A DNA stretch of 64,000 bases from Deltaproteobacteria bacterium (GTDB taxonomy: Bacteria > Desulfobacterota > Desulfarculia > Adiutricales > Adiutricaceae). The DNA lies in contig JAISCZ010000088.1 in the NCBI GenBank assembly GCA_031265205.1, positions 1 through 64,000 on the forward strand, read 5' to 3'. How positions within the stretch are numbered: position 1 is the first letter of the stretch; each line of letters starts with the position of its first letter. The position numbers and the translations under genes were made by a program. The notes beneath the pieces were generated by a model. That model was not told where the DNA came from, searched no databases, and saw only the letters and a program-made list of their open reading frames with translations. Shown in pieces: positions 19,583-39,948 of the stretch.

Positions 19583-21678
19583 GCGTCTTTACCCCCAAAG
19601 GAGACTAAGGCCTCGCTTCCGGGCCGGGTCAGCGTCCCGGCGGCGGGCTCCTGGGCGATGACGCGCCCGCTCCCCCGACACTCCAAATTCAGGGCCAGGG
19701 GCGAGAGGCGATCCAAGACCTGACGCATGGAAAGCCCCGTCAGATCGGGCATCGCGGCGGGGTCCCCGGGGTCCGCCTCAAGGGGAAGGGCCGCGGCCTC
19801 GCCCAGCTCCTCGCCTCCCCAAGGCGCGTCGGCGGGGGCGATGGGGCCCTGGGCGCCCTTGTCCCCCTTAGGGATGGAGACGCGCAGGTAGTTCGCGTTG
19901 GCGTAATCGGGCAAAACCCCCGGAACCCCGCCCTTGGCGCTGTCGGGCGTGGGCCAGGCGGGCGGGGCCGTCTCGGTTTCGTCCTTGGGGGGAATATCCA
20001 AAAGAGGCAGGGCCTCGCTCATGATCTCCCGAAAGACCGGGGCCGCCACGGAGCCGCCGTAATAGTCCGGCCAGGGCTCGTCCAGGACCACGTACAGGCA
20101 GAGCTCGGGATTATGGTAAGGGGCGAGCCCCACGTAGCTGGCCACGAACTGGAAGTGGGAATATGACCCCTCATCGGCGTCGAATTTTTGCGAAGTACCC
20201 GTTTTAGCGGCTATAGGGTATTCAGGGATGTCTCCTCGCGTACCCGTGCCACCCTTCATGACGGCCATGCGCATCATAGCCAAAACCTGGCGGGCGGTGA
20301 GGCGCGAGACCACCTGCCGGATGATTTCGGGCTCGCGCGACTCGATGACGCGCCCGTCGGCGTCAATCACCCGGGAAACCAGCATGGGCCGCATCAGGTA
20401 TCCGTCGTTACCCAAGGCGGCGACGGCCATCACCAGTTGTAGCGCCGTGACGGACAGGCCCTGGCCAAAGGCGACGTTCGCCGCGTCTAAACGCCTCCAG
20501 TCCTTGGCTGGGCGTAGCCTTCCGGCGCTCTCCCCGGAGGGGTAGGCGAGCCCGGACTTTTCGCCGAAGGAGAAACGGGTGAGATAGTTGTGGAGCTTCT
20601 GGGGCCCGAGCCTTTCGCCGATCTTGGCCGCCCCGATATTGGAGGAGACCTGGACAATCCGGCTCACGGTCAAATCCCCGTAGGACCCGGTGTCGCGGAT
20701 GGGGGTGCCGCCGTCGATTTTATAGAGCCCGTTCTCGCAGAAAAGAACGGTGTCCGGGGCGATGAGGCCCTCTTCCAGCCCCGCGGCCACCGTGAAAACC
20801 TTGAAAGTCGAGCCCGGCTCGAAGGGATCGGTTAAGATCCTGTTGCGCCGGGTTTCCATGGGGACGGCCCCGTAGTCGTTGGGGTCGTAAGTGGGATAGA
20901 CGGCCGAGGCCACGATCTCCCCGGTCCGGGGCCGCACGGCGATGGCCATGCCGCTCTTGGCGTTGCTCGCGACGACCGCGCGGGCGATGGCCTTTTCCGC
21001 GATGAACTGGATGCGCCTGTCGAGGGTCAGCATGACCGAGGCCCCCCGGGGGACCTCCTGGACCTGGGCGGCGCTGTCCATGATGACCCGGCCCTTGTTG
21101 TCGCGGGTAACGCGCACTCTTTTCGCGGGGGCCAGGAGGCTGTCGTTCAAGGCCAGCTCCAGGCCCTCGAGGCCCTGGCCCTCGACCCCCACGAAGCCCA
21201 GGAGATGTGAGGCCAGAGAGCCGTTGGGGTAAACCCGGCGGTAACCCTTCTCGATGGTCACCCCCTCCATGTCGAGGGCGGCGACGGCCGCGCTCTCGCT
21301 CTCCGAGAGGTCACGCTTCACGACCGCGTAGCGGACGGCCTTTTCCAGCTTCTGGGCCAAAGACTCGTAATCCATGTCCAGAACCTGGGAGAGGGCCAGA
21401 AAGATCTCCCCGGGTTTCTTCATGATGGCCCCGTGGACCGACAGGGTGTCGGAGCTCACGGAGGTCGCGAGTTTTTCCAGATGGCTGTCGTAGATGTCCC
21501 CCCGCAGGCTGGGGAGGATTAAAACCGTCTGGGAGTGCTTCTGGCTCATGGACCGCAGCTCGTCGCGCTTGGTCACCTGCAGGTAAAAGGCCTTGCCCGC
21601 GACGCCGCCGAAGGCCAGGACAAAAGCGATCGCCAGACAGTAAAGACGGAGCGTAAGCCGCGGGGCGCGAGATTTCAT
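19579..21678 (-). CDS. ftsI: Septal transpeptidase FtsI (PBP3-type) with C-terminal PASTA domain
   Basis: A 699-residue class B penicillin-binding protein that cross-links septal peptidoglycan with FtsW. An N-terminal membrane anchor (about residues 10-30) precedes the PBP dimerisation domain and the transpeptidase domain, with all three active-site motifs: SxxK in EPGSTFKVFTVAAG, SxN in VQVSSNIGAAKI and KTG in AAKTGTSQKF. The last 65 residues form a PASTA domain (AMPDLTGLSMRQVLDRL, ending SEALVSFGG), as in SpoVD and PBP2x-type proteins; E. coli FtsI has none. A Pro/Ala-rich linker joins the two. AAGGGAG precedes the ATG; the stop overlaps murE. Confidence 0.96.
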   Translation of the reverse strand: MKSRAPRLTLRLYCLAIAFVLAFGGVAGKAFYLQVTKRDELRSMSQKHSQTVLILPSLRGDIYDSHLEKLATSVSSDTLSVHGAIMKKPGEIFLALSQVLDMDYESLAQKLEKAVRYAVVKRDLSESESAAVAALDMEGVTIEKGYRRVYPNGSLASHLLGFVGVEGQGLEGLELALNDSLLAPAKRVRVTRDNKGRVIMDSAAQVQEVPRGASVMLTLDRRIQFIAEKAIARAVVASNAKSGMAIAVRPRTGEIVASAVYPTYDPNDYGAVPMETRRNRILTDPFEPGSTFKVFTVAAGLEEGLIAPDTVLFCENGLYKIDGGTPIRDTGSYGDLTVSRIVQVSSNIGAAKIGERLGPQKLHNYLTRFSFGEKSGLAYPSGESAGRLRPAKDWRRLDAANVAFGQGLSVTALQLVMAVAALGNDGYLMRPMLVSRVIDADGRVIESREPEIIRQVVSRLTARQVLAMMRMAVMKGGTGTRGDIPEYPIAAKTGTSQKFDADEGSYSHFQFVASYVGLAPYHNPELCLYVVLDEPWPDYYGGSVAAPVFREIMSEALPLLDIPPKDETETAPPAWPTPDSAKGGVPGVLPDYANANYLRVSIPKGDKGAQGPIAPADAPWGGEELGEAAALPLEADPGDPAAMPDLTGLSMRQVLDRLSPLALNLECRGSGRVIAQEPAAGTLTRPGSEALVSFGGKDA

Positions 21679-26142: not shown

Positions 26143-27267
26143 ATGGCAAAAACATTCAAAACAAAGTATCCGGGCGTTTACTACCGGCTATCCTCCATCA
26201 AAAAGCATGAGGGGAAGCCAGAACGCGTTTTTTATATCGTTTACCAAAACGAAAACGGAAAGCAAATTTGGGAAAAAGTTGGCGTCTCTTCTATTGATTT
26301 CTCCGGTATTAACGCCAACCAAATTAGAACCGATAGGATGCGCGCGGTCCAGGCGAAAAAAAACGGAGAAGAAATCGCCCCTAAAATTCTAACTTTTAAA
26401 GATATCGCTCAAGAGGCGGAAGAAAGACATTTTTACAAATTAGCGCATTTTAGCGACTTTCTTGCGTATCGTAAAAAATACTTCGCGATATTTGACGATA
26501 AAACGCTTTCCGAAATTAACCCTAAAGATATTGAATCTTTGCGGAACAAGCTTCAAGGCGAGGGGAAATGCCCTGGGACTATTATCAATATTTTAAATTA
26601 CTTAAAAGTTATTTTTAACTTAGCTATAAAATGGGATATGTTTCAAGGCGTAAATCCGGTTGTAAAAGTTTCGATCCCGAGAGTGGACGACAAACGGTCA
26701 CGTTATCTTTCTAAGGAAGAAGCCCAAGCTCTTTTGGAAGACCTCAAAAAAAGGTCGCCATATGTCTACGGCCTGGCCATTATTAGCCTCTTTACAGGCA
26801 TGAGACTTAGCGAGACGATTAATCTTAGAGGAGAACATATCAATTTAGAGAACAAAACCATTAAAATCGTAGACACTAAAACTAAAAATAATCGGGTCGT
26901 CTATATTGGCGGCCCTCTCTTGGATTATTTGCGTAATATCCCCATAAAAACTGGGAAGCTTCTTTTAGACCCCCCAAAATGGGCGCATATTAGACAAACC
27001 GCGTCAAAGAATTTTAAAGCGTCAGTCGATCATCTTGGCCTTAACGACGGCATAACCGATCGTCGGGATAAGGTCGTTTTTCACACCTTGCGACATACCT
27101 TCGCCTCCTGGCTGGCAAGCCAGGGCCAAAGCCTCTACACCATCGGGACGCTCCTTGGGCACTCAAGCCCGGAGATGACCAAAAGGTACGCCCACTTACT
27201 GCCGGAAGCAAAGAAGGCGGCGATTGAGTCAATCGACGCCTTCTTTGGGACTCCGCCAGAAAAATAA
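26143..27267 (+). CDS. int: Tyrosine-recombinase integrase
   Basis: A 374-residue phage integrase that joins prophage and host DNA at att sites. The catalytic set is complete: R221 (in FTGMRLSETI), H314-x-x-R317 (FHTLRHTFASWLA), H340 (LLGHSSPEM) and nucleophile Y349 (TKRYAHLL). An N-terminal DNA-arm region (1-80) and a core-binding domain (85-180) precede it. AGGGAAAT precedes the ATG. The gene is richer in A/T than the host genes on its left. It converges with the excisionase-like gene, with 23 bases between the two. Confidence 0.95.
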   Translation: MAKTFKTKYPGVYYRLSSIKKHEGKPERVFYIVYQNENGKQIWEKVGVSSIDFSGINANQIRTDRMRAVQAKKNGEEIAPKILTFKDIAQEAEERHFYKLAHFSDFLAYRKKYFAIFDDKTLSEINPKDIESLRNKLQGEGKCPGTIINILNYLKVIFNLAIKWDMFQGVNPVVKVSIPRVDDKRSRYLSKEEAQALLEDLKKRSPYVYGLAIISLFTGMRLSETINLRGEHINLENKTIKIVDTKTKNNRVVYIGGPLLDYLRNIPIKTGKLLLDPPKWAHIRQTASKNFKASVDHLGLNDGITDRRDKVVFHTLRHTFASWLASQGQSLYTIGTLLGHSSPEMTKRYAHLLPEAKKAAIESIDAFFGTPPEK

Positions 27268-27290: not shown

Positions 27291-27584
27291 CTACTGCCGG
27301 CGTTGCCTGGTTTTCATGCGGAACTTTTCGATATATTCTTCGATATCTTTTCGGCTGTAGAGAATTTTCTTCATCACCTTGCAATAAGGCGGCCCAATAC
27401 GATACCCCCGCCATCTGCAAAGAGTGCTCGCGCGAAGACCGTACTGCGACTCAACCTGAGTGGGCGACAAATAGCCTTTCTCTTCCACGGGCTCAGGCGC
27501 GGGCAAAACGTCCCTTAAAAAAGTGGTGACCTCTTCCCGGACTATCGCGCGGACGTGGGAGTCCAAATCATCCTTTAAAGCCAT
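27291..27584 (-). CDS. Excisionase/MerR-like helix-turn-helix protein
   Basis: A 97-residue protein. The N-terminal half is acidic; the C-terminal half has a winged-helix DNA-binding motif of the excisionase/AlpA type (YLSPTQVESQYGLRASTLCR, then GPPYCKVMKKILYSRKDIEE YIE). Start at MALKDDLD, sharing one base with the upstream stop (TAATG) and preceded by GGAGAAGG. As the last gene of the early operon, next to int, it is likely a recombination directionality factor or regulator of integration; the sequence alone does not separate the two. Confidence 0.75.
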   Translation of the reverse strand: MALKDDLDSHVRAIVREEVTTFLRDVLPAPEPVEEKGYLSPTQVESQYGLRASTLCRWRGYRIGPPYCKVMKKILYSRKDIEEYIEKFRMKTRQRRQ

Positions 27585-28579
27585 TATTCCTTCTCCTCGC
27601 GCATTTCGGCGTATTCGTTCGCAATCTGGCCGATATACTCGCAAACATCCTCATAAGGCGAGCGGCACCACTCGCCATCAATATCTTCTTGGCGCTCAAA
27701 TCCGCCGTCTAAAGCGAGATTAGCCACGGAAAGGCCAATTCCTTCATACCCGACCACGACGAGGCCCCACTGGTTAAAATTGTCCGGAAGAACGCCCATC
27801 AGCGCGGCCACGTGGGCGACCGTTAAACCATCGCCGGCCGCCATCGCCCACTGGTCAAAATCTTCGGGAAGACGGGCCCCCAAATAAACGGCCATGTGGG
27901 CCACGGTCCAGCCTTGGATGTCGGCCCAATCCCAATGTTTAAAATCCTTGGGGAAATTAGAGCTGCCAACGGCCACATGGGCGACAGTCATCCCGTCGAT
28001 GTCTCTTAACTCCCAACGGTCGAAGTCATCGGGCAACATGTCTTGGCGAGCGGCCTCATGGGCGACCGTCCATCCGATCGTGTTGGCAAGCTCCCACTTT
28101 TTAAAGTTTTGGGGTAAATACCTGTGTTCCGCGGCCTCGTGGGCGACCGTCCAGCCGTAATCGTCGGCGATTTCCCATTGGTCAAAATCAAGGGGTAAAT
28201 AGTCGTGTGAGGCGGCCTCGTGGGCGACCGTCCAGCCATCACAGTCGGCCACCGCCCAATGCTCGAAGTCTTTGGGAAAGACCCTCCACTCGGCGGCCTC
28301 ATGGGCGACCGTGTGGCCAGAATTGTCGGCGAGGGTCCAGTCGCTAAAATCTTCAGGCAATTGCTCGCACCGCGCCTCCGCGGCTACGTGGGCGACCGTC
28401 CGCCCATCGTTATCGGCGAGGGCCCAGGCGTCAAAATCTTTAGGTAAATGCTTATTCTTCGCGGCTTCATGAGCGACCGTCCATCCGTTATTGCCGACAA
28501 GCCTCCAGCCCTGAAAATCGGCGGGGAGCGTCCCATCGCTTGCGGCCTCAAAAAGGGCGACTAACTCATCTTTAATCAT
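27584..28579 (-). CDS. Ankyrin-like repeat protein A (about 10 repeats)
   Basis: A 331-residue protein made almost wholly of a 27-28 residue repeat, consensus LPxDFxxWxLADxxGWTVAHEAAxxxx, about ten copies. GWTVAHEAA corresponds to the G-x-TPLH-x-AA core of ankyrin repeats, but the second helix (usually xxVVxLLLxxGA) is replaced by LPxDFxxW and the unit is 5-6 residues shorter than the usual 33. The acidic C-terminus (AEMREEKE) is free of repeats. No signal peptide or membrane segment. Such repeats usually bind proteins; the partner is unknown. It is the last of five such genes, starts at TAATG with the gene upstream and ends at TAATG with the excisionase-like gene. Confidence 0.85.
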   Translation of the reverse strand: MIKDELVALFEAASDGTLPADFQGWRLVGNNGWTVAHEAAKNKHLPKDFDAWALADNDGRTVAHVAAEARCEQLPEDFSDWTLADNSGHTVAHEAAEWRVFPKDFEHWAVADCDGWTVAHEAASHDYLPLDFDQWEIADDYGWTVAHEAAEHRYLPQNFKKWELANTIGWTVAHEAARQDMLPDDFDRWELRDIDGMTVAHVAVGSSNFPKDFKHWDWADIQGWTVAHMAVYLGARLPEDFDQWAMAAGDGLTVAHVAALMGVLPDNFNQWGLVVVGYEGIGLSVANLALDGGFERQEDIDGEWCRSPYEDVCEYIGQIANEYAEMREEKE

Positions 28580-29454
28580 TATTTCCTCCCACGCAATTTT
28601 TCGTAGACATCGCGGACAGTTCGGCCTTGGTTGTCGGCAAGAGTCCAGAGCGCGTTTTCAAAGGTCCCGGCGTCAAAAAACCATGGCAATTTGTCATGCC
28701 GCGCGGCCTCGTGAGCGACGGTCCACCCGTTTTTATCGGCAAGGTGCCAATCGTGGAAGTCTTGTGGTAACCAGCTACGCTCCGCCGCCTCGTGGGCTAC
28801 CGTGCGCCCATCGACATCGGCGAGGAACCACCATGCAAAGGTAGCCGGCATCTTGCCCTTCCTCGCGGCCACATGAGCGACAGTCCAGCCGATATCGGTC
28901 GCTAGCGACCATTGGTTAAAATCATCTGGCAGAATATCGCGCGCGGCCGCTGCATGCGCCACGGATATTCCTTCTTTGTCAGCGAGCGCCCACTGATCAA
29001 AGCCTTCAGGCAAGCGCTTACACCGGGCTAATTCATGCGCGACAGACCAACCTTTTTCGTCGGCAAGCGCTAAATTTTTAAAGGTTTCAGGCAAAGTCCC
29101 ACATTCAGCCGCGATGTGAGCTACCGTCCGGCCGGAATCAGTGGCAAGCTCCCATTTATCGAAGTTGGCCGGCAAATGATTATGCTCCGCCGCTTCATGC
29201 CCTACCGTGTAGCCGGACCCAAAGCTGGACAGTTCCCACTGGTCAAAATCGGCGGGTAAGCGGCCATAGTATTCAGCCACGGCGGCGATAGTCACGCCGT
29301 CTCTAATGTAAAGAGCCCAGCGCCCTAAGCTCTTGGCCACGCTCTGAAGGGGTTCCCCGCTGGAATTATAGACCAGGTCCCACTGGTTAAAATCCTTGGG
29401 AAGCGTACCTTTGGCCGCCTTTTTGAACAGCTTCTTTAAAGCGTCAACTTGCAT
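28579..29454 (-). CDS. Ankyrin-like repeat protein B (about 9 repeats)
   Basis: A 291-residue paralogue of the neighbours, with about nine copies of the LPxDFxxWxLADxxGWTVAHxAA unit. The N-terminus (MQVDALKKLFKKAAKGTLPK) resembles that of protein A (a capping helix before the first LP). The first repeat is degenerate (SSGEPLQSVAKSLGRW) and one unit near the end has an insertion (FFDAGTFENALW). It ends with DNQGRTVRDVYEKLRGRK, an ending also seen in protein C (GLTVREVYDN), so these genes share a capping design. Function unknown; cytoplasmic. Confidence 0.85.
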   Translation of the reverse strand: MQVDALKKLFKKAAKGTLPKDFNQWDLVYNSSGEPLQSVAKSLGRWALYIRDGVTIAAVAEYYGRLPADFDQWELSSFGSGYTVGHEAAEHNHLPANFDKWELATDSGRTVAHIAAECGTLPETFKNLALADEKGWSVAHELARCKRLPEGFDQWALADKEGISVAHAAAARDILPDDFNQWSLATDIGWTVAHVAARKGKMPATFAWWFLADVDGRTVAHEAAERSWLPQDFHDWHLADKNGWTVAHEAARHDKLPWFFDAGTFENALWTLADNQGRTVRDVYEKLRGRK

Positions 29455-29457
29455 CGT

Positions 29458-29625
29458 CTACTCCTCCTCGCGGCTCTCGCCGAGGCCGTTAAGCTGGTTT
29501 CGCCTGAAATTCGCGGAAGTCTCGCTGACGCGCTCAAGCATCAGCTTTTCTCCCTTAGTAAGCTCAATCCCCAGGCAAATATCTTTTAGCCGCGCGCCAT
29601 TGTGCGCGGCTTCGATTAAATTCAT
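29458..29625 (-). CDS. Small hypothetical protein within the ankyrin-like gene array
   Basis: A 55-residue charged protein (MNLIEAAHNGARLKDICLG...) with no recognised domain. The start at 29625 is preceded by AAGGA eleven bases away; an ATG at 29655 would add ten residues but has no ribosome-binding site. A 12-codon frame with a strong GGAGGG (29633-29671) ends just upstream and may act as a leader that couples translation from the repeat gene before it. The opening EAAHNGARL vaguely recalls an ankyrin helix, so it may be a remnant. Confidence 0.5.
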   Translation of the reverse strand: MNLIEAAHNGARLKDICLGIELTKGEKLMLERVSETSANFRRNQLNGLGESREEE

Positions 29626-29674
29626 GAGGATTTTATTCCTTGTTTTTCGATTCATTCGCGATGTCTTTCATGGG

Positions 29675-30508
29675 TTATTTCCCTCCTATAATGATGTTCT
29701 TGACCTGCTCGCTCGCAAGCTTCGCGCGGTTGTCATAAACTTCCCGGACAGTAAGTCCAGCATTAGTCCTAAAATTCCAAAGGTTGAAGCCTTGAGGCAG
29801 GCATCCGAAACACGCGGCCGCATGCGCCACGCTCCAACCGTCTTCGTCAGCGAAGGCCCATAAGGTGAAATCTTTAGGTAGAAGGCCATACTCCGCGGCT
29901 TGGTGCGCTACGGTGTAGCCGTTGGCAGTGGCGAGGCGCCATTTGTTAAACCCAACGGGAAGATGGTTTTTCCGCGCCGCTTGATGCGCCACCGTCCATC
30001 CGTTTACGTTAGCAAGCTCCCACTGGTCGAAGTTATCTGGCAAAAAATCCTTAGTAACGGCAACGTGCGCAACTGTGTTGCCGTCATCATCGGCGAGACT
30101 CCATTGGTCGAAGGCATCGGGTAAATAGCCGTAACATGCGGCGACGTGCGCCACGGTCCAACCATTCTTACTGAAGAGCTTCCATTGGTCGAAGCCAACG
30201 GGCAAATGACCGTATCGCGCGGCCACGCTCGCCACGGTTTCACCGTCCTTGTTGGCGAGACTCCATTGGTCAAAACCATCGGGTAAAGGCCCGTAGCAAG
30301 CAGCTTCATGCGCTACTGTCCAGCCATCCTTACGGGCGATGGCCCATTGATTAAAAGCAGAGGGCAAGTAGCCAAATTCAGCGGCAATGTGCGCCACGGT
30401 AAGTCCGTCTTCGTTAGCCAGCTCCCATTGGCTGAAGTCATCGATCAAAGAACCGTTCCTTGTTATCCGGAAAAGCGTTTCAATCGACGGATAAATAAAA
30501 CATATCAT
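29675..30508 (-). CDS. Ankyrin-like repeat protein C (about 9 repeats)
   Basis: A 277-residue protein with nine regular repeats of 27 residues, the cleanest of the set (for example LPDGFDQWSLANKDGETVAS). Each unit keeps the LP-x-x-F-x-x-W pair and the TVAHxAA helix. It opens with a short hydrophobic cap (MICFIYPSIETLFRI), too short to be a sure signal peptide, and ends with TVREVYDNRAKL plus a basic tail. AGGAGAGG precedes the ATG. No catalytic motif is visible; likely a protein-binding scaffold or decoy. Confidence 0.85.
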   Translation of the reverse strand: MICFIYPSIETLFRITRNGSLIDDFSQWELANEDGLTVAHIAAEFGYLPSAFNQWAIARKDGWTVAHEAACYGPLPDGFDQWSLANKDGETVASVAARYGHLPVGFDQWKLFSKNGWTVAHVAACYGYLPDAFDQWSLADDDGNTVAHVAVTKDFLPDNFDQWELANVNGWTVAHQAARKNHLPVGFNKWRLATANGYTVAHQAAEYGLLPKDFTLWAFADEDGWSVAHAAACFGCLPQGFNLWNFRTNAGLTVREVYDNRAKLASEQVKNIIIGGK

Positions 30509-30537
30509 GGTTATTTCCTCTCCTAATCGAAAAGCTT

Positions 30538-31020
30538 CTAGATGTCGCTAACCATCGTAGCTTCTCTCAATTTACGAAAGAGAGATTCTACGCTCATGCC
30601 GTAGTTATTAACGAGGCACCAAACGTTTCTATCGCCCGCCCAAGGGATTTTTTTTAAAAGCTTTTTGCTTTCAAAAATATGCCCGACAAACGCATGCGCG
30701 ACCGTGTTTCCGTCGTTGTCGGCAAGATGCCACTGGTTAAAATCATCTGGCAAATGGCCACTTTCCGCCGCCACGTGCGCGACCGTCACTCCGTTAACAT
30801 TGGCAAGCTCCCACTTGTCAAAGCCTTTAGGCATGGCTCCATGAAGCGCGGCCATGTGGGCGACCGTTACGCCGTCATCGTCGGCCAGTTCCCATCTGTC
30901 AAAGTCCGATGGCAAAATCCCAAAGACGGCCGCCGCGTGGGCGAGGGTCGCGTTCGGCCCCAAACTAGCGTCCCACAGCCTATAATCCGCGGGCAAAATG
31001 TGAATTAGACGAGTAGCCAT
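30538..31020 (-). CDS. Ankyrin-like repeat protein D (about 5 repeats)
   Basis: A 160-residue short member of the family. It begins MATRLIHILPADYRLWD, nearly the same as protein E (MATRLSPILPADDNKW), so D and E arose by a recent tandem duplication. About five repeats follow, then a divergent C-terminal cap with a tryptophan-rich segment (KKIPWAGDRNVWCLVN) also shared with E. AGGAGAAG lies before the chosen ATG; the open frame extends upstream into the end of E. Function unknown. Confidence 0.85.
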   Translation of the reverse strand: MATRLIHILPADYRLWDASLGPNATLAHAAAVFGILPSDFDRWELADDDGVTVAHMAALHGAMPKGFDKWELANVNGVTVAHVAAESGHLPDDFNQWHLADNDGNTVAHAFVGHIFESKKLLKKIPWAGDRNVWCLVNNYGMSVESLFRKLREATMVSDI

Positions 31021-31031
31021 AATTTCTTCTC

Positions 31032-31607
31032 CTACCTGAAAAGATTCTTGATATCGCGCAACATTGCCGCTTGCAATTCCTGGTGGTAATACTCCGCGAC
31101 ACTCATGCCGTCTTTGGTGCTGAGTTTCCAAACGTCGCTATCATCGGCCCAAGGCAACTTTTCCTCAACCCCTTTTTCGGCGGCGCGCTCAACAAACAGA
31201 TGCGCGACCGTGATTCCGTCTTTATTGGCGAGATGCCACTGAGTAAAATCATCTGGCAACCGACTACACATCGCCGCCAAATGAGCGACAGTCCAGCCGT
31301 TTTTATCGGTCAATTCCCAGCGGTCAAAGTCCTTGGGTAACTTGCCATGAACTGCTAATACGTGGGCGACCGTCACAGCATCGGCATCGGCCAATTCCCA
31401 TTTATTAAAGCCTTTGGGTAGGGTTCCACAAAGCGCGGCCATGTGAGCGACCGTCCAGCCGTCGACTGTGGCTAGTTCCCATTTGCCAAAATCCAAAGGC
31501 AAAACTCCATATATAGCCGCCGCGTGCGCGAGAGTCGAACCAGTTGTAAGAATCCGGTTCCACTTGTTATCGTCGGCTGGCAAAATGGGACTTAGACGAG
31601 TAGCCAT
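31032..31607 (-). CDS. Ankyrin-like repeat protein E (about 5-6 repeats)
   Basis: A 191-residue close paralogue of protein D with the same N-terminal cap, five to six 27-residue repeats and the same C-terminal cap (EEKLPWADDSDVWKL, then GMSVAEYYHQEL). It is the first of the five repeat genes in transcription order, 29 bases after the hypothetical gene at 31637. Repeats at equal positions in D and E differ most at the residues between TVAH and LP, where ankyrin repeats usually contact partners. Confidence 0.85.
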   Translation of the reverse strand: MATRLSPILPADDNKWNRILTTGSTLAHAAAIYGVLPLDFGKWELATVDGWTVAHMAALCGTLPKGFNKWELADADAVTVAHVLAVHGKLPKDFDRWELTDKNGWTVAHLAAMCSRLPDDFTQWHLANKDGITVAHLFVERAAEKGVEEKLPWADDSDVWKLSTKDGMSVAEYYHQELQAAMLRDIKNLFR

Positions 31608-31636: not shown

Positions 31637-32116
31637 CTAGTTAACTTTGGTTCCGGCCTTGGTCATATTGATGATGGACGCGCCTTCAGCTTTAGACGCT
31701 TGGACAAGCAAGTATTTCAAAAAACCGACGCGCGCGTTGCGAGAGTTGCCGAAGCCGTCGCTGAAGCTATTGGCAAGCTCCTCAGGCATGGTCTTAAAGA
31801 GATCGCTCCAAAGCGTTACCTTCAGCAAAGGTGTCAGGCTCGCGATTGCGCACAACTCACTCCTCAAGCCTATGATGGCTTCCGTGACACCACTAAGCGC
31901 GTCTCGGTTCGCCTGGAATTCAGCCTCGAAGAACTTTTTGAAGGAGTCCAGCATATCGCCGATGGCCTTCAGGCCGTCCTTAATCTCAGAGCTAACTCCG
32001 TCAATGTCTGGATCGGTGTTCATCGAGTGTAACGTTAGATTCATGACGTGTAACTCTTCGGCGACGGTGTAAGCTTCTCCAAAGAATTTGCCAACTTTAT
32101 CACGGTACGATGTCAT
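31637..32116 (-). CDS. Hypothetical prophage protein
   Basis: A 159-residue protein without a known domain. It is mostly helical with a central region likely to form a coiled coil (residues 40-90) and a hydrophobic stretch ASLTPLLKVTLW. A similar segment, LKVALWVYVYNNLPVED, occurs in the next gene upstream (32193-32579), and both have the pattern LKV(A/T)LW followed by (L/M)P and acidic residues, so they may be distant paralogues. It lies directly ahead of the ankyrin-like gene array. Confidence 0.6.
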   Translation of the reverse strand: MTSYRDKVGKFFGEAYTVAEELHVMNLTLHSMNTDPDIDGVSSEIKDGLKAIGDMLDSFKKFFEAEFQANRDALSGVTEAIIGLRSELCAIASLTPLLKVTLWSDLFKTMPEELANSFSDGFGNSRNARVGFLKYLLVQASKAEGASIINMTKAGTKVN

Positions 32117-32192: not shown

Positions 32193-32579
32193 TTATTCCT
32201 CGTGTTCAGCAAATTTTTTCGCTCTCTCCCGCCTCCTTTCTTCCCTTTCCTCATTCTCCATTTCTTCAGTTACTTCCGCTTCCAGCAACATTTTGCGCAT
32301 AATTTTTTTATTGTCTTCATACTGCCAGTCCTCTACGGGAAGATTATTGTAGACGTAAACCCACAGCGCGACTTTCAAAACCGACAAAATGGTCTTTATG
32401 GTGGCGTTATCAAGAATATCTAAGTAATTCAGGTGACACGTCGACAACACATCGTAGATGCGCTCTAAGTCATATGTCGCGTCGGCGCTTGAAGAGTCAA
32501 TTTTTTCAGCGATACTTTTTAAGGCATCCCTGATTTCTCCAAGCGATACCGCTTTTTCAAACTCAACATCATTCGTCAT
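32193..32579 (-). CDS. Hypothetical coiled-coil protein
   Basis: A 128-residue helical protein. Its middle contains NATIKTILSVLKVALWVYVY, a possible amphipathic or membrane-associated segment, and its C-terminus is a highly charged coil (EEMENEEREERRRERAKK). It shares a weak pattern with the following gene. Function unknown; it starts the accessory block after a hairpin that could attenuate transcription from the replication genes. Confidence 0.6.
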   Translation of the reverse strand: MTNDVEFEKAVSLGEIRDALKSIAEKIDSSSADATYDLERIYDVLSTCHLNYLDILDNATIKTILSVLKVALWVYVYNNLPVEDWQYEDNKKIMRKMLLEAEVTEEMENEEREERRRERAKKFAEHEE

Positions 32580-32675: not shown

Positions 32676-33065
32676 CTATTCGCTAGCGCCAATGTATTTT
32701 TCAAAGGCGCGGATGCCTTCCAGCTGGCCAACGCACACCTGCGCGCCGTAGCCGTTGGCCGCCACCTTCGCCAAAAAGGCCTTCTGCTCAGGTTTCAACT
32801 TCCCCCCAAGCGTCTTAAACTCAATGAAAAGGCCGTGAAACCCATCGCGAGGCTCCGCGATAAACACGTCCGCCGTCCCTTTCCGGACGCCCTCTTCCTT
32901 AAGCCGCCGGCCCGTGATGGGGCTCCTCTTTCCACCATTGGGGACGGCGCAATAGGGAACGTCCGGATACTTCGCGTCTAGCCATTGAACAAAAAGCTTT
33001 TGCTCCATGTGCTCAGTCAAGAGCCCGGCCTTGCCAAGCGGCTTTCGAGGCTTCCTTGGCGTCAT
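32676..33065 (-). CDS. VRR-NUC domain nuclease
   Basis: A 129-residue VRR-NUC protein of the PD-(D/E)xK superfamily, common in phages, where it probably acts on branched DNA or Holliday junctions. The motifs are YCAVPNGGKR, KGTADVFIAEP (catalytic Asp) and GLFIEFKTLGGKLKPEQKAF (catalytic Glu-x-Lys). The start at MTPRKPRK overlaps the stop of the small membrane gene upstream (ATGA). It probably works with the replication genes ahead of it. Confidence 0.9.
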   Translation of the reverse strand: MTPRKPRKPLGKAGLLTEHMEQKLFVQWLDAKYPDVPYCAVPNGGKRSPITGRRLKEEGVRKGTADVFIAEPRDGFHGLFIEFKTLGGKLKPEQKAFLAKVAANGYGAQVCVGQLEGIRAFEKYIGASE

Positions 33066-33211
33066 TTCCGCTCCTTGTCCCAATGGTCGTCCCACTTGAC
33101 CGTGTTATCGTCCCGAAGGTCGCGGTTCACGTCCAAAAAGAACGTTACAGCCTGATAAACCCAATAGATGAGCCCGCTAAGGGCCAAAAATAGAATTAAA
33201 TACGTCAACAT
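33062..33211 (-). CDS. 49-residue membrane-anchored prophage protein
   Basis: Overlaps the primase gene stop at its start (TGATG) and the VRR-NUC start at its end (ATGA), with a near-perfect GGAGGACTG ribosome-binding site. The protein has one N-terminal membrane helix (MLTYLILFLALSGLIYW) and a charged cytoplasmic tail (about residues 27-49, FLDVNRDLRDDNT). Both junctions and the strong site make it a real gene although it is short. Function unknown; possibilities include a membrane anchor for the replication complex or a superinfection factor. Confidence 0.75.
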   Translation of the reverse strand: MLTYLILFLALSGLIYWVYQAVTFFLDVNRDLRDDNTVKWDDHWDKERK

Positions 33212-35262
33212 CAGTCCTCCCTATCGACGGCGCGCAAGAAAAAGGTCCGCGCTTTGTCCGGGTTCATAATCTTTTCAATAGTGCCGCGCTCAAGGCACTT
33301 GGCGACGACCTGGCGCGTATAACGATCCGGCCACCCTAAAGCTTCATGTAGATGTTTTGGAAATATCTTCTCCCCATTAGCGGCCAGGGCCCGCAGCTCC
33401 TCCGGGAGCTTCCGGCAGCTCTCCTCCATCCGGATGAGCTTCTTCGGGTCGTCCTCCTGATAAAGGCGCTTCAAAACCCCATCCGACTTCTCCAGGATAA
33501 TCATCCGTTCGGGCGAGCCCATGTTCTTCTTGACCACCTTCGCCGCCACGTAGCAGCCGTCCTCGCCCTCCAAGGCCTCTTCTCTCTTGAGGAACTTCCC
33601 GGCCAGCTTCCCGCTGATGGGGACGAGCTGCGCCACCCACCGCAGCGCTCCGGCAATCGACGAGGCCCCACGGATGCTCACCTGAGACATCGCCTCCAAG
33701 AGATTCTTCCGGACGTGGATCACGTCGCCGGCGCTCTTATTGGAATGGTGAATCAAAACGATGTTGCAGTTATGCCGTTCCGCCGTCGCCTCCAGCAGAG
33801 CCAGCATGCCGTTCATTAAGACGTTGTTATTTTCGTCCCCGCCAAGGAACCTTACAAAAGTATCCAAAATTAAAATATTCGGTTTATAGTCCATTAACAT
33901 GATGTCTAATTTGGCGTAATTCGGAGCCGGAGCCACGCGGCCCGCCTCAACAAAGGCCAGAGCCACGTCCCCTCTGAAGGTGTGGGCCCGGAAGTCTAAA
34001 CGGTCGATATCCAAGTCCGGAAACATCTCCATCGCCTCTTTTAGCCTGAAATGCTGTATCTGGCTCGTGTCTTCCACGGATACGCTCATCACCCTAAAGG
34101 GGCGCGTCGGGAACCAGTTCTCAAATAAAGGGTTGCCGGAGGCCAGGGCCAGAATCAGCTGCGATGTAAAGAGCCCTTTCCCGCTTCCCGGAGGGCCGAA
34201 AATCATCCCTAGCTGGCCACGCAAAAAGGAGTTATCGAAAATCCAATGGAAAGGCTCAGGGTCGCCCAAGAGGCTTTCCGGAGTTAAAAAATCAGTCCCG
34301 TTACGGTCAAAGTCATCGCAGGTCGAGGCGGCGTCGCCGCCGCGGGGAAAGAACTTAAAGGCCGATTTAGCCGTCGCCCGGACTTCCGTCTCCGGAAGAG
34401 GGTCCGCCGTCGAAATATTGAGGCGGAGCGCCATATTGGCCAGCCCCTCGGAGGTCATGTTCTTAGGGTCCGCCAGGTAACATATTTCGCGGTAAAGCTG
34501 CTGGTTCCTCTCGCCTTCCACGGCGGACTCAAAGTTGACCTTCCGCCCCGTAAACTGAAGGATTTTCCCTGGCCCTAATCCGTTGGCCGCCCCATCGGCC
34601 GCCCCATCGGCCGTCCCATCGGCGGAGGCCTCGCCCTTGGGAAGAGGCCCGGGACCCAGCTGGAACGGCGCGGCGATTCCCGGCGAGCCGCCCGATGGGG
34701 AGCCCTTAGACTTCTTCTTGGATTTGGAGGGCGAGGTAATCTCAGTCTCCGGAAGCTGGTCATAAATAAACTGAGGCGATATCGCCGGGATATCATCGAA
34801 GGGCGGCGCGTGAAGCCACTCGTAGACGTGGCCGCTTTGATGGACTGACGGTGGCATGCAGGTTATGGTGCCTTCCCCTCGGATTTCTCCGGCGTGGCCA
34901 AGGAGCGTCCGGATATTGGCCCCCTTGATAACCTCGTTTGGAGGAATCCGAAAATAGTAGTGCCTTCCGCGAGCGGATATCGCGACTCGGATGGTATCCA
35001 AAGGCACCTGGATAATAGGCTCAAACCAGTTCACCGTTTCTTCGTCGTCGGCGTCCACGGTCCAAAAACCAGAGACGCGACCGTTTACAAGGCCAATATT
35101 CCGAGGATGGGTTACGTCAAACCATTTAATGATTTGCTCTCGGCTTGGGGGATTAGTTTGATAGGGCTTCCAGTTAATGACGCAAGCTTTTCCCTCAAGA
35201 GGCACCACGCATAGCCTTTGGGCGTGATACTCTAAGGCGGCTTTAAGTATTTCATTGGCCAC
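33211..35262 (-). CDS. Prim-pol primase fused to RepA-like hexameric helicase
   Basis: A 683-residue replication protein. Residues 1-170 form a bifunctional primase/polymerase domain: the metal-binding pair D70 and D72 in FWTVDADDEE, H101 in ARGRHYYF, and the GEGTITCMPPSVH motif. A low-complexity linker (Ser/Lys and ADG repeats) joins it to a RecA-like ATPase with Walker A in IFGPPGSGKGLF and Walker B in ILILDTFVRF. The C-terminus is a winged-helix-like tail. It would prime and unwind phage DNA. Three stand-alone copies of the first domain lie directly upstream. Its start is three bases from the last of them. Confidence 0.93.
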   Translation of the reverse strand: MANEILKAALEYHAQRLCVVPLEGKACVINWKPYQTNPPSREQIIKWFDVTHPRNIGLVNGRVSGFWTVDADDEETVNWFEPIIQVPLDTIRVAISARGRHYYFRIPPNEVIKGANIRTLLGHAGEIRGEGTITCMPPSVHQSGHVYEWLHAPPFDDIPAISPQFIYDQLPETEITSPSKSKKKSKGSPSGGSPGIAAPFQLGPGPLPKGEASADGTADGAADGAANGLGPGKILQFTGRKVNFESAVEGERNQQLYREICYLADPKNMTSEGLANMALRLNISTADPLPETEVRATAKSAFKFFPRGGDAASTCDDFDRNGTDFLTPESLLGDPEPFHWIFDNSFLRGQLGMIFGPPGSGKGLFTSQLILALASGNPLFENWFPTRPFRVMSVSVEDTSQIQHFRLKEAMEMFPDLDIDRLDFRAHTFRGDVALAFVEAGRVAPAPNYAKLDIMLMDYKPNILILDTFVRFLGGDENNNVLMNGMLALLEATAERHNCNIVLIHHSNKSAGDVIHVRKNLLEAMSQVSIRGASSIAGALRWVAQLVPISGKLAGKFLKREEALEGEDGCYVAAKVVKKNMGSPERMIILEKSDGVLKRLYQEDDPKKLIRMEESCRKLPEELRALAANGEKIFPKHLHEALGWPDRYTRQVVAKCLERGTIEKIMNPDKARTFFLRAVDRED

Positions 35263-35264
35263 AT

Positions 35265-35849
35265 TTAGCTCTCGCCGTAGGTCGCGGCCTGATTGTTGAG
35301 TAACTTCAAAATCGCGTCCTTAAGTTGGTCTAGGACGACCCACGGCGAAGCCTCCGCCATCTCATTAAACGGAAGCTTGTTAAGCCACTTGTAAACATGC
35401 CCTTCCGGATGGACGGACGGAGGGAGAACGGTAAGAGACCCGGAGCAGCGGATGTCGAGGTTGAGCCCTTTCGCCCTCGGGATAAAGCGTTTGCCGACGT
35501 TATACGCGTCATCTTCCGAGAGCCTGAAGAAGAAGTGCTGGCCGCGCAACGTTTCGGCGATTCCAACCGTTTCCAAAGGCCCCTGGATAAGCGACATGAG
35601 CCAATCGATCGTCTTGGCGTCGTCACAGTCCACGGACCAGACACCGGAAATATAGCCGTTCACAAGGGCGATATTCGGAGGGTTAGCGACGTTAAACCAG
35701 CTCGCGAGTTCCTCTTCCGTGGGAAGACGGCCCCGATATTCCGTCCAATTAAATTCAGGCCTTTTGCCTTTCACTGGCACCACGCTAACGCCTTCGCTGA
35801 CGTATTCGCGGGACGCTTCGTAAATTTGGTTGATAGTTGTTTTGGTCAT
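35265..35849 (-). CDS. Stand-alone prim-pol domain, paralogue 1 (active site kept)
   Basis: A 194-residue protein equal to only the prim-pol part of the neighbouring primase-helicase; there is no helicase. The metal pair D74/D76 (VWSVDCDDAK), the histidine H105 (LRGQHFFFRL) and the GSLTVLPPSVHPEGHVYKW motif are all intact, so it could be catalytically active. By eye about 40% identical to the primase N-terminus. It begins at TAATG with the stop of paralogue 2, so the three domain genes and the primase are one translationally linked set. Confidence 0.88.
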   Translation of the reverse strand: MTKTTINQIYEASREYVSEGVSVVPVKGKRPEFNWTEYRGRLPTEEELASWFNVANPPNIALVNGYISGVWSVDCDDAKTIDWLMSLIQGPLETVGIAETLRGQHFFFRLSEDDAYNVGKRFIPRAKGLNLDIRCSGSLTVLPPSVHPEGHVYKWLNKLPFNEMAEASPWVVLDQLKDAILKLLNNQAATYGES

Positions 35850-36478
35850 TAGTTTTCCTCTTTTGCCTGGCCCGGCTGCGGGCCCGGCTGTGGGGTTGGC
35901 TCCAGGTTCGCCTGAATCGGAGCGTTCTTGGGGCCGATGCGATCCAAGATAATCCGCGGGGAGACCACGGCAAGCTCCTTAAACGGTGGCCTATTAATCC
36001 AATAGTAAATTGTCCGGCTTGGAAGGCTGACGGACGGCGGAAGGCAAGTAATCGTCCCATTGCCGCAGATTTCGACGCAAAAGGCCATTCTCTCTTTGGT
36101 TATTTTGTTTTGGGCCGTATGGACGACCACGACACGGCTCCTGACGCGCTCGATGTCCTCCGGAAGTTTAAATAAATAGATCAGCCCACAAAGGGTACGG
36201 AAGACGGCGACCTTTTCTAAGGGCTCGGGGATAAGCTTTTTAAACCAATTGTTGGCGACCGTGCTATTGCATTCCACGGACCAAAGCCGGGAGGAGCCGT
36301 TTAGAACGCCGATATTGGGCGGATTTTCAACGTCAAACCACTTCGTAAGCTCCTCAAGAGTCGGAAGCTTATCCCTGTAGAGCGACATGTTAACTTGCGG
36401 GATTTTGCCCTTCATGGGGATGACGCTTATGCCCTCGTCCACGTACTCAAGGGCGGCGTCGTAAATCGGGTTGCTCAT
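35849..36478 (-). CDS. Stand-alone prim-pol domain, paralogue 2 (catalytic residues changed)
   Basis: A 209-residue relative of the primase domain. The overall pattern is kept (EGISVIPMKGK, NPPNIGVLNG, GNGTITCLPPS), but the metal pair reads E69 and N71 (LWSVECNST) and the histidine position is isoleucine (TLCGLIYLF). The histidine after PPS is lost as well. It is therefore probably not a polymerase and may bind template, the active paralogue or the primase. The C-terminus is Pro/Gln-rich. The stop overlaps paralogue 1 (TAATG). Confidence 0.85.
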   Translation of the reverse strand: MSNPIYDAALEYVDEGISVIPMKGKIPQVNMSLYRDKLPTLEELTKWFDVENPPNIGVLNGSSRLWSVECNSTVANNWFKKLIPEPLEKVAVFRTLCGLIYLFKLPEDIERVRSRVVVVHTAQNKITKERMAFCVEICGNGTITCLPPSVSLPSRTIYYWINRPPFKELAVVSPRIILDRIGPKNAPIQANLEPTPQPGPQPGQAKEEN

Positions 36479-36501
36479 TTAGTTCTCCTTGCTTAAAGAG
36501 T

Positions 36502-37092
36502 TTAAAAGGGAATGTCAGCGCCATCCGCTAACGCGGCCATTAGATTTTTCCTCTCGCCAACTTTCACTAAATCCGGAAGATCAAAAATGAAGCGCGGCGA
36601 GACAACGGCTAACTTGTTAAAAGGAACTTCGTTTTCCCACTCCGCCACGGCTCCGTCGTGATAGATTGTCGGAGGAAGGCAGCAGCAATCCCCAGAACCG
36701 CTAACCTCGATGCATAAGGAATTAGCCTCGGAGCCAAATATCCCATGTTCGACGCGCGAGACATCTTCTGGAAGACGAAACAAAAAGCCCTTCGTGCGCG
36801 GGGTCTTAATAATTCCAACGGCGCTTAATTTCGCCGGGACAATTGATTTAAACGAATTTTCGCTCATATTAGCTACGTACACGCACCAGATTTGAGAATA
36901 AGCGCCGCACAGGACGCCCACACCCTGAACGTCGGGCGCGTTAAACCAAAGCTTAAGGGTGTTCCCCGAGATAAACGGTAACGTTCGCATGTAGCTAAAA
37001 CCATCTATCATCACTTTATTGTCCTTCAGCGACGCGACAATCGCGCCTTGGGACGAGTACTTAAGGGCGGCCTCGTAAATCTGAGCGTTCAT
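36502..37092 (-). CDS. Stand-alone prim-pol domain, paralogue 3 (catalytic residues lost)
   Basis: A 196-residue, most divergent member. The position of the metal pair reads Y72 and A74 (IWCVYVANMS), the histidine is replaced by glycine (TPRTKGFLFRLPE), and the last motif is GSGDCCCLPPTIYHDGAVAEW. The fold-defining hydrophobic pattern and the WFN...V.GVGVLCGAYS segment are still recognisable, so it is not random decay: the frame is intact. Probably a non-catalytic accessory subunit. First of the prim-pol set in transcription order, after the nuclease. Confidence 0.82.
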   Translation of the reverse strand: MNAQIYEAALKYSSQGAIVASLKDNKVMIDGFSYMRTLPFISGNTLKLWFNAPDVQGVGVLCGAYSQIWCVYVANMSENSFKSIVPAKLSAVGIIKTPRTKGFLFRLPEDVSRVEHGIFGSEANSLCIEVSGSGDCCCLPPTIYHDGAVAEWENEVPFNKLAVVSPRFIFDLPDLVKVGERKNLMAALADGADIPF

Positions 37093-37108
37093 GGCAAAAA
37101 TCCTTGGC

Positions 37109-38248
37109 TTATAAAGCGGAGAAATAATCGTCCATTAAATCGGCCGGGACATACGACTCGCAGCCCTTCAAGTCGTCAAGAGGCTTCCGCCGTGAAACTT
37201 GAGCGCACCACGGCTTCTTGGAAGCCGGGATATGGCCGATAATCTTCCATATGTCCTCAATCGTGATGACGGCCCCTCGCCGCTCTTGCCGCAGCTTATT
37301 CAAGCCAACCGTGTACATCGGGAGGCAATCGGCGATAACTTCCAAAGTTTTATCCTCCGTTTTGGCGTCCGCGCGGCGGGAGAGGACCGTTTTTGTCCGG
37401 TTCCGATTGCAGTTAATCTCCGCGACGCTCCGAAAAGACTTGCAATCCAAGCACCGCGTATCCTGGACCTTGGGCCAAAGCTCATATTTCGCGCAAATTG
37501 GTTTATAGCCGCAAATATTGCATTCCGAGAAGCGGTTCGGGAAATCGCTCGGCAAAGGGTCCGGAGCCTTCCGAGACGTCAAAATCGACGCCGCGCGAGC
37601 CATAATCCGCTTGTAAAGGTCTTCCCGATAATTCACCGTCTCAACGTGAATCTTTTGGGTGTCCTTGTTTTCGACGATAAAAAGAGCCTTGTTTATCGGC
37701 GTACCCGGAGGGTTGCCGAGTTGCCTCTGCAAAGGCGCGATAAAGCTTTGCAGGCGGCCTAAATAGACCTGAATTTGAGATAGATACATGCTGTTAGACT
37801 TAACGCCATGGGTAACGTACTTGGCGAAGCCGGCGTCGTTAACTCCCTTTATTTCCAGCAAATAGGGTATCGTCGCGCCCGGAAGCGTTATTAGCCCGTC
37901 CACGTGTCCCATGAAACGGTAATTAAAGCCGTACAAAGTCCCTTGGTGGTAATAGATGAAGCATCCGCCCTTGATAAGCTCGCGCTTAATCCTGGTCTCA
38001 AGGTTATGTCCCGCTTGAAACTTCCGCGCGACGACATCAGGGATAGGCTCGGCGTTGGCCCCACGGTATTTAAACCAAACATTCCGGGAGCAAGGATGGC
38101 CGATATAGGACATGCCTAAATATTCCCGGCCTAGGCTTCCTTCCTCGTTTAATTTCAAGGCCCCATCATAGACAGCCTGGGCCGCGATTTCCGCCAGGCT
38201 GGGGGGAGCCACGGTTCCTTGGAGCTCGTCTTTAATCTCGTCTACCAT
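37109..38248 (-). CDS. Cas4-like PD-(D/E)xK nuclease
   Basis: A 379-residue nuclease of the Cas4/RecB-C family. The core shows MGHVDGLITL (catalytic Asp), YLLEIKGVNDAG (catalytic Glu-x-Lys) and SQIQVYLG (motif with Gln), followed by clustered cysteines (CNICGYKPIC, CLDC) that may bind zinc or an iron-sulfur cluster. It probably processes DNA ends in phage recombination together with the helicase, whose stop it overlaps (ATGGTAG). I use the ATG at 38248 next to AAGGA; the open frame extends five codons to a TTG. Confidence 0.85.
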   Translation of the reverse strand: MVDEIKDELQGTVAPPSLAEIAAQAVYDGALKLNEEGSLGREYLGMSYIGHPCSRNVWFKYRGANAEPIPDVVARKFQAGHNLETRIKRELIKGGCFIYYHQGTLYGFNYRFMGHVDGLITLPGATIPYLLEIKGVNDAGFAKYVTHGVKSNSMYLSQIQVYLGRLQSFIAPLQRQLGNPPGTPINKALFIVENKDTQKIHVETVNYREDLYKRIMARAASILTSRKAPDPLPSDFPNRFSECNICGYKPICAKYELWPKVQDTRCLDCKSFRSVAEINCNRNRTKTVLSRRADAKTEDKTLEVIADCLPMYTVGLNKLRQERRGAVITIEDIWKIIGHIPASKKPWCAQVSRRKPLDDLKGCESYVPADLMDDYFSAL

Positions 38249-39948
38249 TCCTTCACCTTCCAAAATTCGCCGTCTCGCTTCAGTTCCACCGCGCCAGTAA
38301 ACCGTAGCTCATTCTTGCGGGATACGGCCATGTCTACCGTGCCCGGAGGATTCGTGTTTGTGGCGTTCATGCGCCAGAATTGCTTGGCCTTTTTTTGTCC
38401 ATATTGCGAGCCGGTACCCTCAAAATCGAAGTATTGAAAGAAATTCAAAACGCCGTCATGGACGCAAGTTCCAAGCGACTTAAGCTTTTTCGCGTCTATT
38501 CTGTCGAGGTTTGAAAACCTGGCGAAGACGCTCAAGCGAGCCATCCGATTCCCTTTGCGGCTGACATGCGGCTCCATGTCCCACTGGAGAATCTCGGCCT
38601 TAAGCTTGATGTCTTCTTGAAAAAATATCTCGTACAAAGCGACCGCGTCGGCTTCCGACAACCCCTTTTTTTGCGCCGGGGGTTGCCAAACATAGCCGCA
38701 CTCCGGGCAAAGGTACTCGCCGTGCGGGACATAGGTCCGGCATATAGGGCAAACCTTAAAGCCGGGATGCTCATCCTCCGTAGACTCCGACACGGTGGGA
38801 TCGCTTGGATGCCCATGCCGAGTAAAATTACCCACCAGATCCAGGACTAAAACGTCTTTCTTGCCCTCGCGAATTCTCGTCCCACGGCCCACCATCTGAA
38901 CGAAGAGCCCGGGAGACAGCGTCGGCCGCGCCATCAGAATCAGATCGACGCGAGGGCTATCCCATCCTTCGGTTAAGACCCCCACGTTAACTAAGATGTC
39001 AAATTTGCCCTCGGCGAAGGAGTTAAGGGTCCGCGTCCGCGCTCCCTTGTCAAGCTTCGAGTGCACCACGCGAGCCTCATAGCCGGCGCGGTTGAAAGCG
39101 TCGGTCAAAACCTCGGCGTGCTCGATGGTCACCGCGAAGACCAAAACATTTCTCCGGCTTTCTCCAAACTCTTTGTAAGCGTTAACCGCGCTCTGGATGT
39201 GGACTTTCTTGGACATCAGCTCGGAAAGTTGTCCCTGGTGATATTCCCCTTCCGTCGTCTTGATGGATTGAAGCTCATCGTCAATCCTGGCGGCTTCCTT
39301 GGCCCTAATCGGCACCAGCCAGCCCTCTTCCACCAAGTCGTTCATGGTGATTCTGTAATCAACATCCGAAAAAAAATCGTTCTCGTGTCCGTAGATGTAG
39401 CCCGTGTTGAGCCGAAACGGTGTCGCCGTCACGCCTAAAACGCGCATCGTCGGGTACTTAAGTAGCAATTTTTCTATAACTATTTGATATTGAGACGGAC
39501 CGACATCAGTCAGCTTGCCAATGTGATGCGCCTCGTCCACTATTAATAAATGGATATCCCTCGCTACGGTCCGCGTGGCCAGGGTTTGAACCGTCCCAAT
39601 GATGATGGGGTATTCCGTGTTGACCTTCTGAAGGGAGGCGCAGGCAATCCCAATCCGGCCGTAGGCTGACGGCCAAACCTTTTGCAGCTTGTCCCTTGCC
39701 TGCAAAACAAGTTCCGTCCGGTGCGCGAGAATGCCAACCGACATCTTGGGATATGTCTCCATATAATGCTTCGCCAAAGCGCTAAAAATGATGGTCTTCC
39801 CTCCGCCCGTGGCCATTTCCAAGAGGACGCGCCGCTTATTCTGAAGGGCTTCCAACAGAGCCACGACGCAATCCTCCTGGTAGGGCCGAAGGACGAATTC
39901 TTGCTCCTCGGGCGAGGGCAAAAAGCTAGAAGGGAAGGTCAGCGTCAT
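38242..39948 (-). CDS. SF2 DEAH-type DNA helicase with zinc-ribbon segment
   Basis: A 568-residue helicase of the RecG/Rad25-like phage group. Walker A ATGGGKT (46-52), Walker B IVDEAHH (DEAH at 138-141), motif III VTATPFR, and motif VI FVQMVGRGTRIR are present. Two CxxC pairs (CPICRTYVPHGEYLCPECG) about residue 395-412 suggest a zinc ribbon. The C-terminal 130 residues lack a known domain. Its start lies within the end of the upstream SSB-like gene. It likely serves strand exchange or replication restart. Confidence 0.93.
   Translation of the reverse strand: MTLTFPSSFLPSPEEQEFVLRPYQEDCVVALLEALQNKRRVLLEMATGGGKTIIFSALAKHYMETYPKMSVGILAHRTELVLQARDKLQKVWPSAYGRIGIACASLQKVNTEYPIIIGTVQTLATRTVARDIHLLIVDEAHHIGKLTDVGPSQYQIVIEKLLLKYPTMRVLGVTATPFRLNTGYIYGHENDFFSDVDYRITMNDLVEEGWLVPIRAKEAARIDDELQSIKTTEGEYHQGQLSELMSKKVHIQSAVNAYKEFGESRRNVLVFAVTIEHAEVLTDAFNRAGYEARVVHSKLDKGARTRTLNSFAEGKFDILVNVGVLTEGWDSPRVDLILMARPTLSPGLFVQMVGRGTRIREGKKDVLVLDLVGNFTRHGHPSDPTVSESTEDEHPGFKVCPICRTYVPHGEYLCPECGYVWQPPAQKKGLSEADAVALYEIFFQEDIKLKAEILQWDMEPHVSRKGNRMARLSVFARFSNLDRIDAKKLKSLGTCVHDGVLNFFQYFDFEGTGSQYGQKKAKQFWRMNATNTNPPGTVDMAVSRKNELRFTGAVELKRDGEFWKVKEW

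Follow-up and report, generated by a model that had tools for sequence, protein, structure and literature searches.

The 64,000-nucleotide window analysed here (contig JAISCZ010000088.1, positions 1-64,000, forward strand), from a Deltaproteobacteria bacterium of the family Adiutricaceae, has cell-wall genes of the chromosome on its left side, followed by a prophage with an integrase, replication genes and a structural module, which by its predicted gene content is of the contractile-tail type. Within this prophage, five adjacent open reading frames (ORFs) on the minus strand, at 27584-31607 and designated A to E, encode proteins built of a short ankyrin-like repeat and are the subject of this study. 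A first-pass annotation of the DNA, made from the letters alone, had pointed to five tandem repeat genes at this place, and the ORFs are confirmed.

Following the minus strand, gene E (31032-31607, 191 amino acids) comprises five units and a C-terminal cap, and gene D (30538-31020, 160 amino acids) four units. The ORF list had given D 197 amino acids with a start at a TTG inside E; the start was corrected to the ATG at 31020, which follows an AGGAG-type site and opens the protein with MATRL, the same as in E. D is a paralogue of E minus exactly one 27-residue unit, the two being 58% identical. Gene C (29675-30508, 277 amino acids) has eight units with an N-cap and a C-cap, and between C and B lies a small ORF of 65 amino acids (29458-29655, equally on the minus strand) without repeats and without a match. 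Gene B (28579-29454, 291 amino acids) contains seven clear and about two degenerate units, while gene A (27584-28579, 331 amino acids), with a net charge of -41, carries ten units and a 48-amino acid tail. One-base overlaps of the form TAATG link the stop of B with the start of A and the stop of A with the start of a putative excisionase gene.

The unit follows the consensus xxGxTVAHxAAxxGxLPxxFxxWxLA plus one linker residue and is 27 residues long in nearly all instances, a spacing of 27 being found in 1075 neighbouring unit pairs over all loci. The repeats are real, although the nearly 40 copies proposed at first are slightly too many: 33-36 are counted in A-E depending on strictness (36 loose matches to the helix motif, 34 on the initial reading, 33 LPxxFxx(W/L) halves). 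A hidden Markov model of the unit gives 33 matches in the window, all within the A-E block and none elsewhere. A chance origin of the repeats is excluded, since composition shuffles (1000) yield far fewer motifs, with a mean of 0.28 and a maximum of 3 for the helix motif and a mean of 0.04 and a maximum of 1 for the second-half motif.

An abbreviated ankyrin unit

The initial description of the unit as ankyrin-like, though shorter and with a different second half, is borne out by profile comparison, as hhalign matches the family to the ankyrin consensus (99.5%, E 2e-22) in an alignment that spans precisely the finger loop plus the first helix and ends there. As to whether these are plain ankyrin repeats, as had been considered, the profile searches give a divided answer: A, B, C and E pass the gathering cut-off of Pfam ankyrin models as whole-protein sums (C with Ank_2 at 2.2e-12) and D does not, but the passes arise mainly by summing many weak matches, single units are unmatched, and a genome-wide search with Ank_4 matched the canonical ankyrins of the genome and neither the A-E units nor their giant relatives. 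NCBIfam provided no credible match for A-E. Pfam matches of A and C to HTH_23, DUF6600 and RHH_5 were taken as chance products of the repeated helix motif. The family is mostly unrecognised, being reached by Pfam ankyrin models through summed scores only, with several plasmid copies annotated as hypothetical.

AlphaFold models of C and E, built using natural relatives, show a solenoid, for which structure prediction had been suggested as a test. Both are regular, with a predicted local distance difference test (pLDDT) score of 93.8 for C and 93.2 for E and a predicted template modelling (pTM) score of 0.87 for either protein. Assignment of secondary structure by DSSP places a single helix in each internal unit of the two models and leaves LPxxFxxW non-helical. 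Foldseek searches of the PDB returned ankyrins and designed ankyrin repeat proteins (DARPins) first (5et1, E 4.5e-11, probability 1.00; AnkB 5y4d, TM 0.70 by query), and those of a viral library mostly ankyrin proteins from giant and pox viruses.

Taken by alignment and model, the unit retains the ankyrin finger loop and inner helix, with LPxxFxxWxL standing in for the outer helix. With canonical ankyrins (Pfam Ank, Ank_2, Ank_4) and DARPins, the A-E proteins have in common the GxTxxHxAAxxG signature, the finger loop, the inner helix, the stacked solenoid with N-cap and C-cap and variable residues on the binding face. Unlike them, they fail the canonical definition on two features, because the unit has 27 and not about 33 residues and, in the models, one helix and not two; on unit length and helix count a plain canonical ankyrin is ruled out. 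The groove in which AnkB takes up its targets is built from finger loops and inner helices, and its convex back from outer helices (PMC4358367); by analogy the part lost in the short unit would be the convex back and not the binding face. Judged from profiles and models, it is highly probable that A-E form a solenoid of an abbreviated ankyrin unit, which resembles ankyrin and probably works like ankyrin.

Almost no variation is seen at the scaffold positions among 1256 distinct units, while positions 1, 2, 12, 13 and 15 are freest, followed by 4, 18 and 22. The highest variability had been assigned to the residues between TVAHxAA and LP; these are indeed variable, but the G is flanked by three residues that are equally so, two on its N-terminal and one on its C-terminal side. 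In ankyrin numbering, unit positions 1, 2, 4, 12 and 13 belong to the finger loop or to the last part of the inner helix, and we take them to correspond to positions randomised in the design of DARPins. As far as the alignment and the models can place them, the positions that match the ankyrin target-binding face vary most. DARPins possess six randomised positions in each internal repeat (PMC6590788).

The ratio of nonsynonymous to synonymous differences (pN/pS), determined for 46 independent close unit pairs, is 0.17 at scaffold positions and 0.84 at variable positions, a pattern which indicates purifying selection on the scaffold and nearly free change at the variable positions. At the level of genes, the corresponding substitution ratio (dN/dS) is 0.31 for D versus E and, for other paralogue pairs of the same genome, 0.21 (C13/C133) and 0.51. 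The reading frames are intact, with stops in 13 of 1574 adjacent unit pairs, and the high pseudogene rate that had been contemplated is not observed.

Operon position and prophage context

A-E are encoded on the same strand as the replication genes and close the leftward replication operon, with no convincing internal promoter in the block, which is located, as stated at first, between the replication genes and the integrase gene int. In one related element (G013), the genes that come after a related primase gene are RusA, AlpA and int, and the repeat block is missing between them. In another relative (G030), the slot beside the excisionase-like gene is occupied by an acetyltransferase gene and two Lar-type restriction-alleviation genes (L182:1824-3126, G030:C125), one of the two above the Pfam cut-off; these share with A-E the corresponding slot, but no sequence or fold relation. 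As the slot is empty in the former and filled with other genes in the latter, the A-E block is regarded as accessory cargo. A decayed copy of gene A is present on contig C129 of the window's own genome (L033:4874-5661, G000:C129). The remnant of a related prophage on that contig consists of fragments of the integrase, the excisionase-like gene and the gene A C-terminus, beside secD/secF-like genes.

The tyrosine integrase gene int (26143-27267, plus strand; Pfam Phage_integrase 7.6e-27) is followed by the putative excisionase gene of 97 amino acids (27291-27584, minus strand), which lies convergent to int, an arrangement that recurs in relatives together with the pairing of int and an excisionase-like gene; its weak match to Pfam HTH_17 (3e-4, with a longer ORF) is under the curated cut-off. 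On the other side of the block, all on the minus strand, a gene of unknown function with 159 amino acids (31637-32116), for which no match and no relative among viral contigs was found, is situated in the operon directly upstream of E, followed by a second operon gene of unknown function without match (32193-32579), a nuclease-like replication gene of a Holliday-resolvase-type PHROG (32676-33095; phrog_824 8e-37, phrog_5702 6e-12) and the replication/recombination module (33211-41587), to which PHROGs assign a primase/helicase, two primase-like genes, a Cas4-type exonuclease, a helicase and a Sak4-like annealing protein. At 33211-37092, four successive genes, one full primase/helicase and three short genes, are mutually similar over the primase N-terminal domain, which represents an unusual tandem duplication.

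A promoter-like site at 44092-44121 (minus strand; consensus match only) is a candidate driver of the leftward operon, and a candidate repressor gene (44115-44606, plus strand; Pfam HTH_3 1.5e-9) is divergent to it. The structural module of a contractile-tail phage (46443-62248, plus strand; PHROGs) encodes terminase, portal, head/protease, neck, sheath, tape measure and hub proteins. Beyond the window, three tandem paralogous genes in the tail region of the prophage (G000:C78:67488-69739) encode proteins with a glycine-rich start, TWTAPxxGTYRVTxIGGGGxGG. A comparison of the int side with the distant part of the contig, made to locate an attachment site, detected no direct repeat of more than 15 bases, and the search for RNA features gave no Rfam match. 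Close relatives of the prophage, sought in order to date the block, were not found, the best primase reaching 37%.

Carriers of the repeat family

The host genome contains 46 matches to gene C, with ORFs of up to 1648 amino acids. Among relatives, 18 of 60 have matches, up to 75 per genome and all in one family, and in an even phylum-wide draw strong matches are confined to 3 of 297 genomes, one of them the window's own. Giant chromosomal repeat proteins of 1600-2000 residues are encoded at L026:5518-10464 (G000:C15, about 40 units), L075:3654-9718 and G028:C45. Copy numbers are underestimated because the assembly breaks inside repeats: some contigs of the host genome end there, and in the paralogue pairs L028:1-2760/L029:4430-6847 and L030/L031 the contigs stop at the same residue within the repeat.

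Among carriers with a name, 'Deltaproteobacteria bacterium' and Desulfovibrio metagenome-assembled genomes (MAGs) prevail, whose sample-style names are provisionally taken as those of termite-gut surveys. Desulfobacterota such as Adiutrix are reported by surveys of that habitat (PMC9137090, PMC10281810). The family further occurs in Acidithiobacillus ferrivorans, where an integrase and a conjugative coupling protein are encoded in the surrounding region, in Desulfomicrobium, with a copy that adjoins an integrase, and in Desulfacinum hydrothermale and Lysobacterales; a putative integrative and conjugative element (ICE) is among the mobile elements that bear repeat genes. In a Desulfovibrionaceae MAG (L084:3202-5928), five units are fused N-terminally to a complete polyphosphate kinase, which suggests that the repeat acts in the cytoplasm as a targeting module.

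INPHARED phages gave no match. On the viral contig L103, some five or six repeat genes stand in tandem on the strand opposite the terminase gene, and short ankyrin genes are present on other viral contigs as well. One of the latter, L105, additionally encodes other repeat proteins (13619-14368, 16350-16913) with short acidic units like LDPEEIAGIFHNR. A protein of 1345 amino acids encoded at L090:4446-8483 combines HTH_23/HTH_28 matches in its N-terminal part with five short ankyrin units near the C-terminus. On the Deferribacter megaplasmid pDF308, tandem genes, mostly annotated hypothetical, encode a distant unit, TVAHEQAxxGWxTxDxEILKL (L128:3684-5315, 19920-20855); these proteins resemble A-E in their 27-residue TVAH units, tandem genes and location on a mobile replicon, but are 34% identical and have xxDxEILKL instead of LPxxFxxWxL as the second half.

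Possible functions of A-E

As the best overall explanation, though a tentative one, we consider A-E to be early-made target-binding solenoids, probably for counter-defence or host takeover. The proteins would be single-domain, probably cytoplasmic binders composed of abbreviated ankyrin units and would be made at an early stage of lytic growth or induction. Each of them would attach via its concave face to a particular bacterial protein and neutralise or redirect it; defence or regulatory proteins are the most likely candidates, and the presence of paralogues together with gain and loss of whole repeats may broaden the range of targets. A protein-binding role, already envisaged in the first-pass annotation, is supported by the fold, and the solenoid models, the ankyrin fold matches, the variable positions and the split in pN/pS between these and the scaffold make A-E appear as binders. 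That the bound proteins are bacterial is reasonably likely, while a role specifically in counter-defence or takeover can be put forward with reserve. The explanation as a whole draws on the one-unit difference between D and E, the place in the operon, the TAATG overlaps, the empty slot of one relative and the Lar-type genes of another, on other phages and the putative ICE, which carry the same genes, and on the cytosolic polyphosphate kinase fusion.

Several observations weigh against this explanation. Clear positive selection was looked for and not seen, as pN/pS at variable positions is below one overall, and an arms race is not shown; the Lar-type genes occupy the slot in one relative only; promoter-like sites are not above chance expectation in number; and A-E have no match in PADLOC, a library of defence and not of counter-defence proteins. 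Moreover, the repeat family had been viewed as phage matter, a view that is not supported: most copies found are chromosomal, many of them in the host genome, and in the sampled MAGs they are mostly not beside phage genes, for which reason a general cellular use is attributed to the family. The proposition that all copies are prophage was dropped, head and tail families being absent from the 25 commonest neighbour PHROGs in these MAGs, and by its sequence distribution the family is not phage-specific.

The same distribution gives room to the foremost alternative, unlikely in itself, that A-E mimic the giant scaffold repeat proteins of the host and compete for their partners, or have been captured from the chromosome without a special role for the phage. 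The abundance and size of the host and relative copies and their mostly non-phage neighbours are in line with it, as is gene C, which is about as close to chromosomal copies (54-58% identity) as to any phage copy, and the chromosomal copies may have a general scaffold role for which the phage genes compete. Yet the same small single-domain genes are borne by unrelated phages and mobile elements of other lineages.

To our knowledge, the discussion of phage ankyrin proteins has until now treated them as tools directed at eukaryotes, and in the open-access literature neither a 27-residue ankyrin family nor phage ankyrins directed against bacterial defence were found to be described. In favour of such a role for A-E, the repeat family is most expanded in a bacterial family whose named members bear MAG names provisionally assigned to termite-gut samples. 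Roles as effectors or immune modulators towards a eukaryotic partner of the bacterium, as proposed for ankyphages of sponge symbionts (PMC7064744) and for Wolbachia phage WO (PMC9203015), are known among phage ankyrins, and A-E are comparable to the former in being ankyrin-type proteins of a bacterial phage and to the latter in that several ankyrin-type cargo genes are found per prophage, sometimes beside a recombinase. However, for ankyphage ankyrins, secretion and an action on the immune system of the sponge are described (PMC7064744), and phage WO has a eukaryotic association, whereas, as far as descriptions and not sequences can be compared, A-E possess a shortened unit and a place in a replication operon. 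In agreement with the initial view that no signal peptide is visible, hydropathy, the sole method used, detected no N-terminal hydrophobic segment in A-E. Some carriers are moreover not host-associated, and with Acidithiobacillus ferrivorans, Desulfacinum hydrothermale and, distantly, Deferribacter among them, the effector role against a eukaryote considered earlier is weakened and seems improbable.

Many lysogenic cargo genes lie on the strand opposite structural genes such as terminase, the arrangement also seen for the tandem genes of L103. Together with the accessory place beside int, this could speak for expression of A-E in the lysogen as a guard against other phages, i.e. lysogenic conversion or superinfection exclusion, which had been among the first suggestions. 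The block is nevertheless on the replication-gene strand at the end of that operon and runs with one-base overlaps into the putative excisionase gene, and neither a convincing internal promoter nor promoter-like sites above chance were found, so that this reading, too, has lost ground and is quite improbable. Drifting repeat sequence without maintained function, to which the large spread in size, the gain and loss of whole units and the decayed gene A copy might be ascribed, is very improbable in view of the scaffold pN/pS, the dN/dS values of D/E and C13/C133 and the rarity of stops.

If the preferred explanation of A-E as early-made binders of bacterial proteins is widened to the family, one arrives at a natural counterpart of a DARPin library, in which sets of half-ankyrin binders with a quick-changing binding face and a length altered by whole units would be carried on phages, conjugative elements and plasmids for contests between bacteria and mobile elements, the expanded chromosomal copies of this bacterial family representing the other side; this is a speculative and rather unlikely extension. 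Phages and a putative ICE recurrently carry the shortened ankyrin unit, a plasmid carries a distant form of it, and in one bacterial family the unit has grown into proteins of 1000-2000 residues, while free-living carriers occur elsewhere. Should the targets of A-E be defence or regulatory proteins of bacteria, these genes would provide a class of phage inhibitors that is modular and can be re-targeted, and the regular 27-residue unit would offer a new designable binding scaffold.

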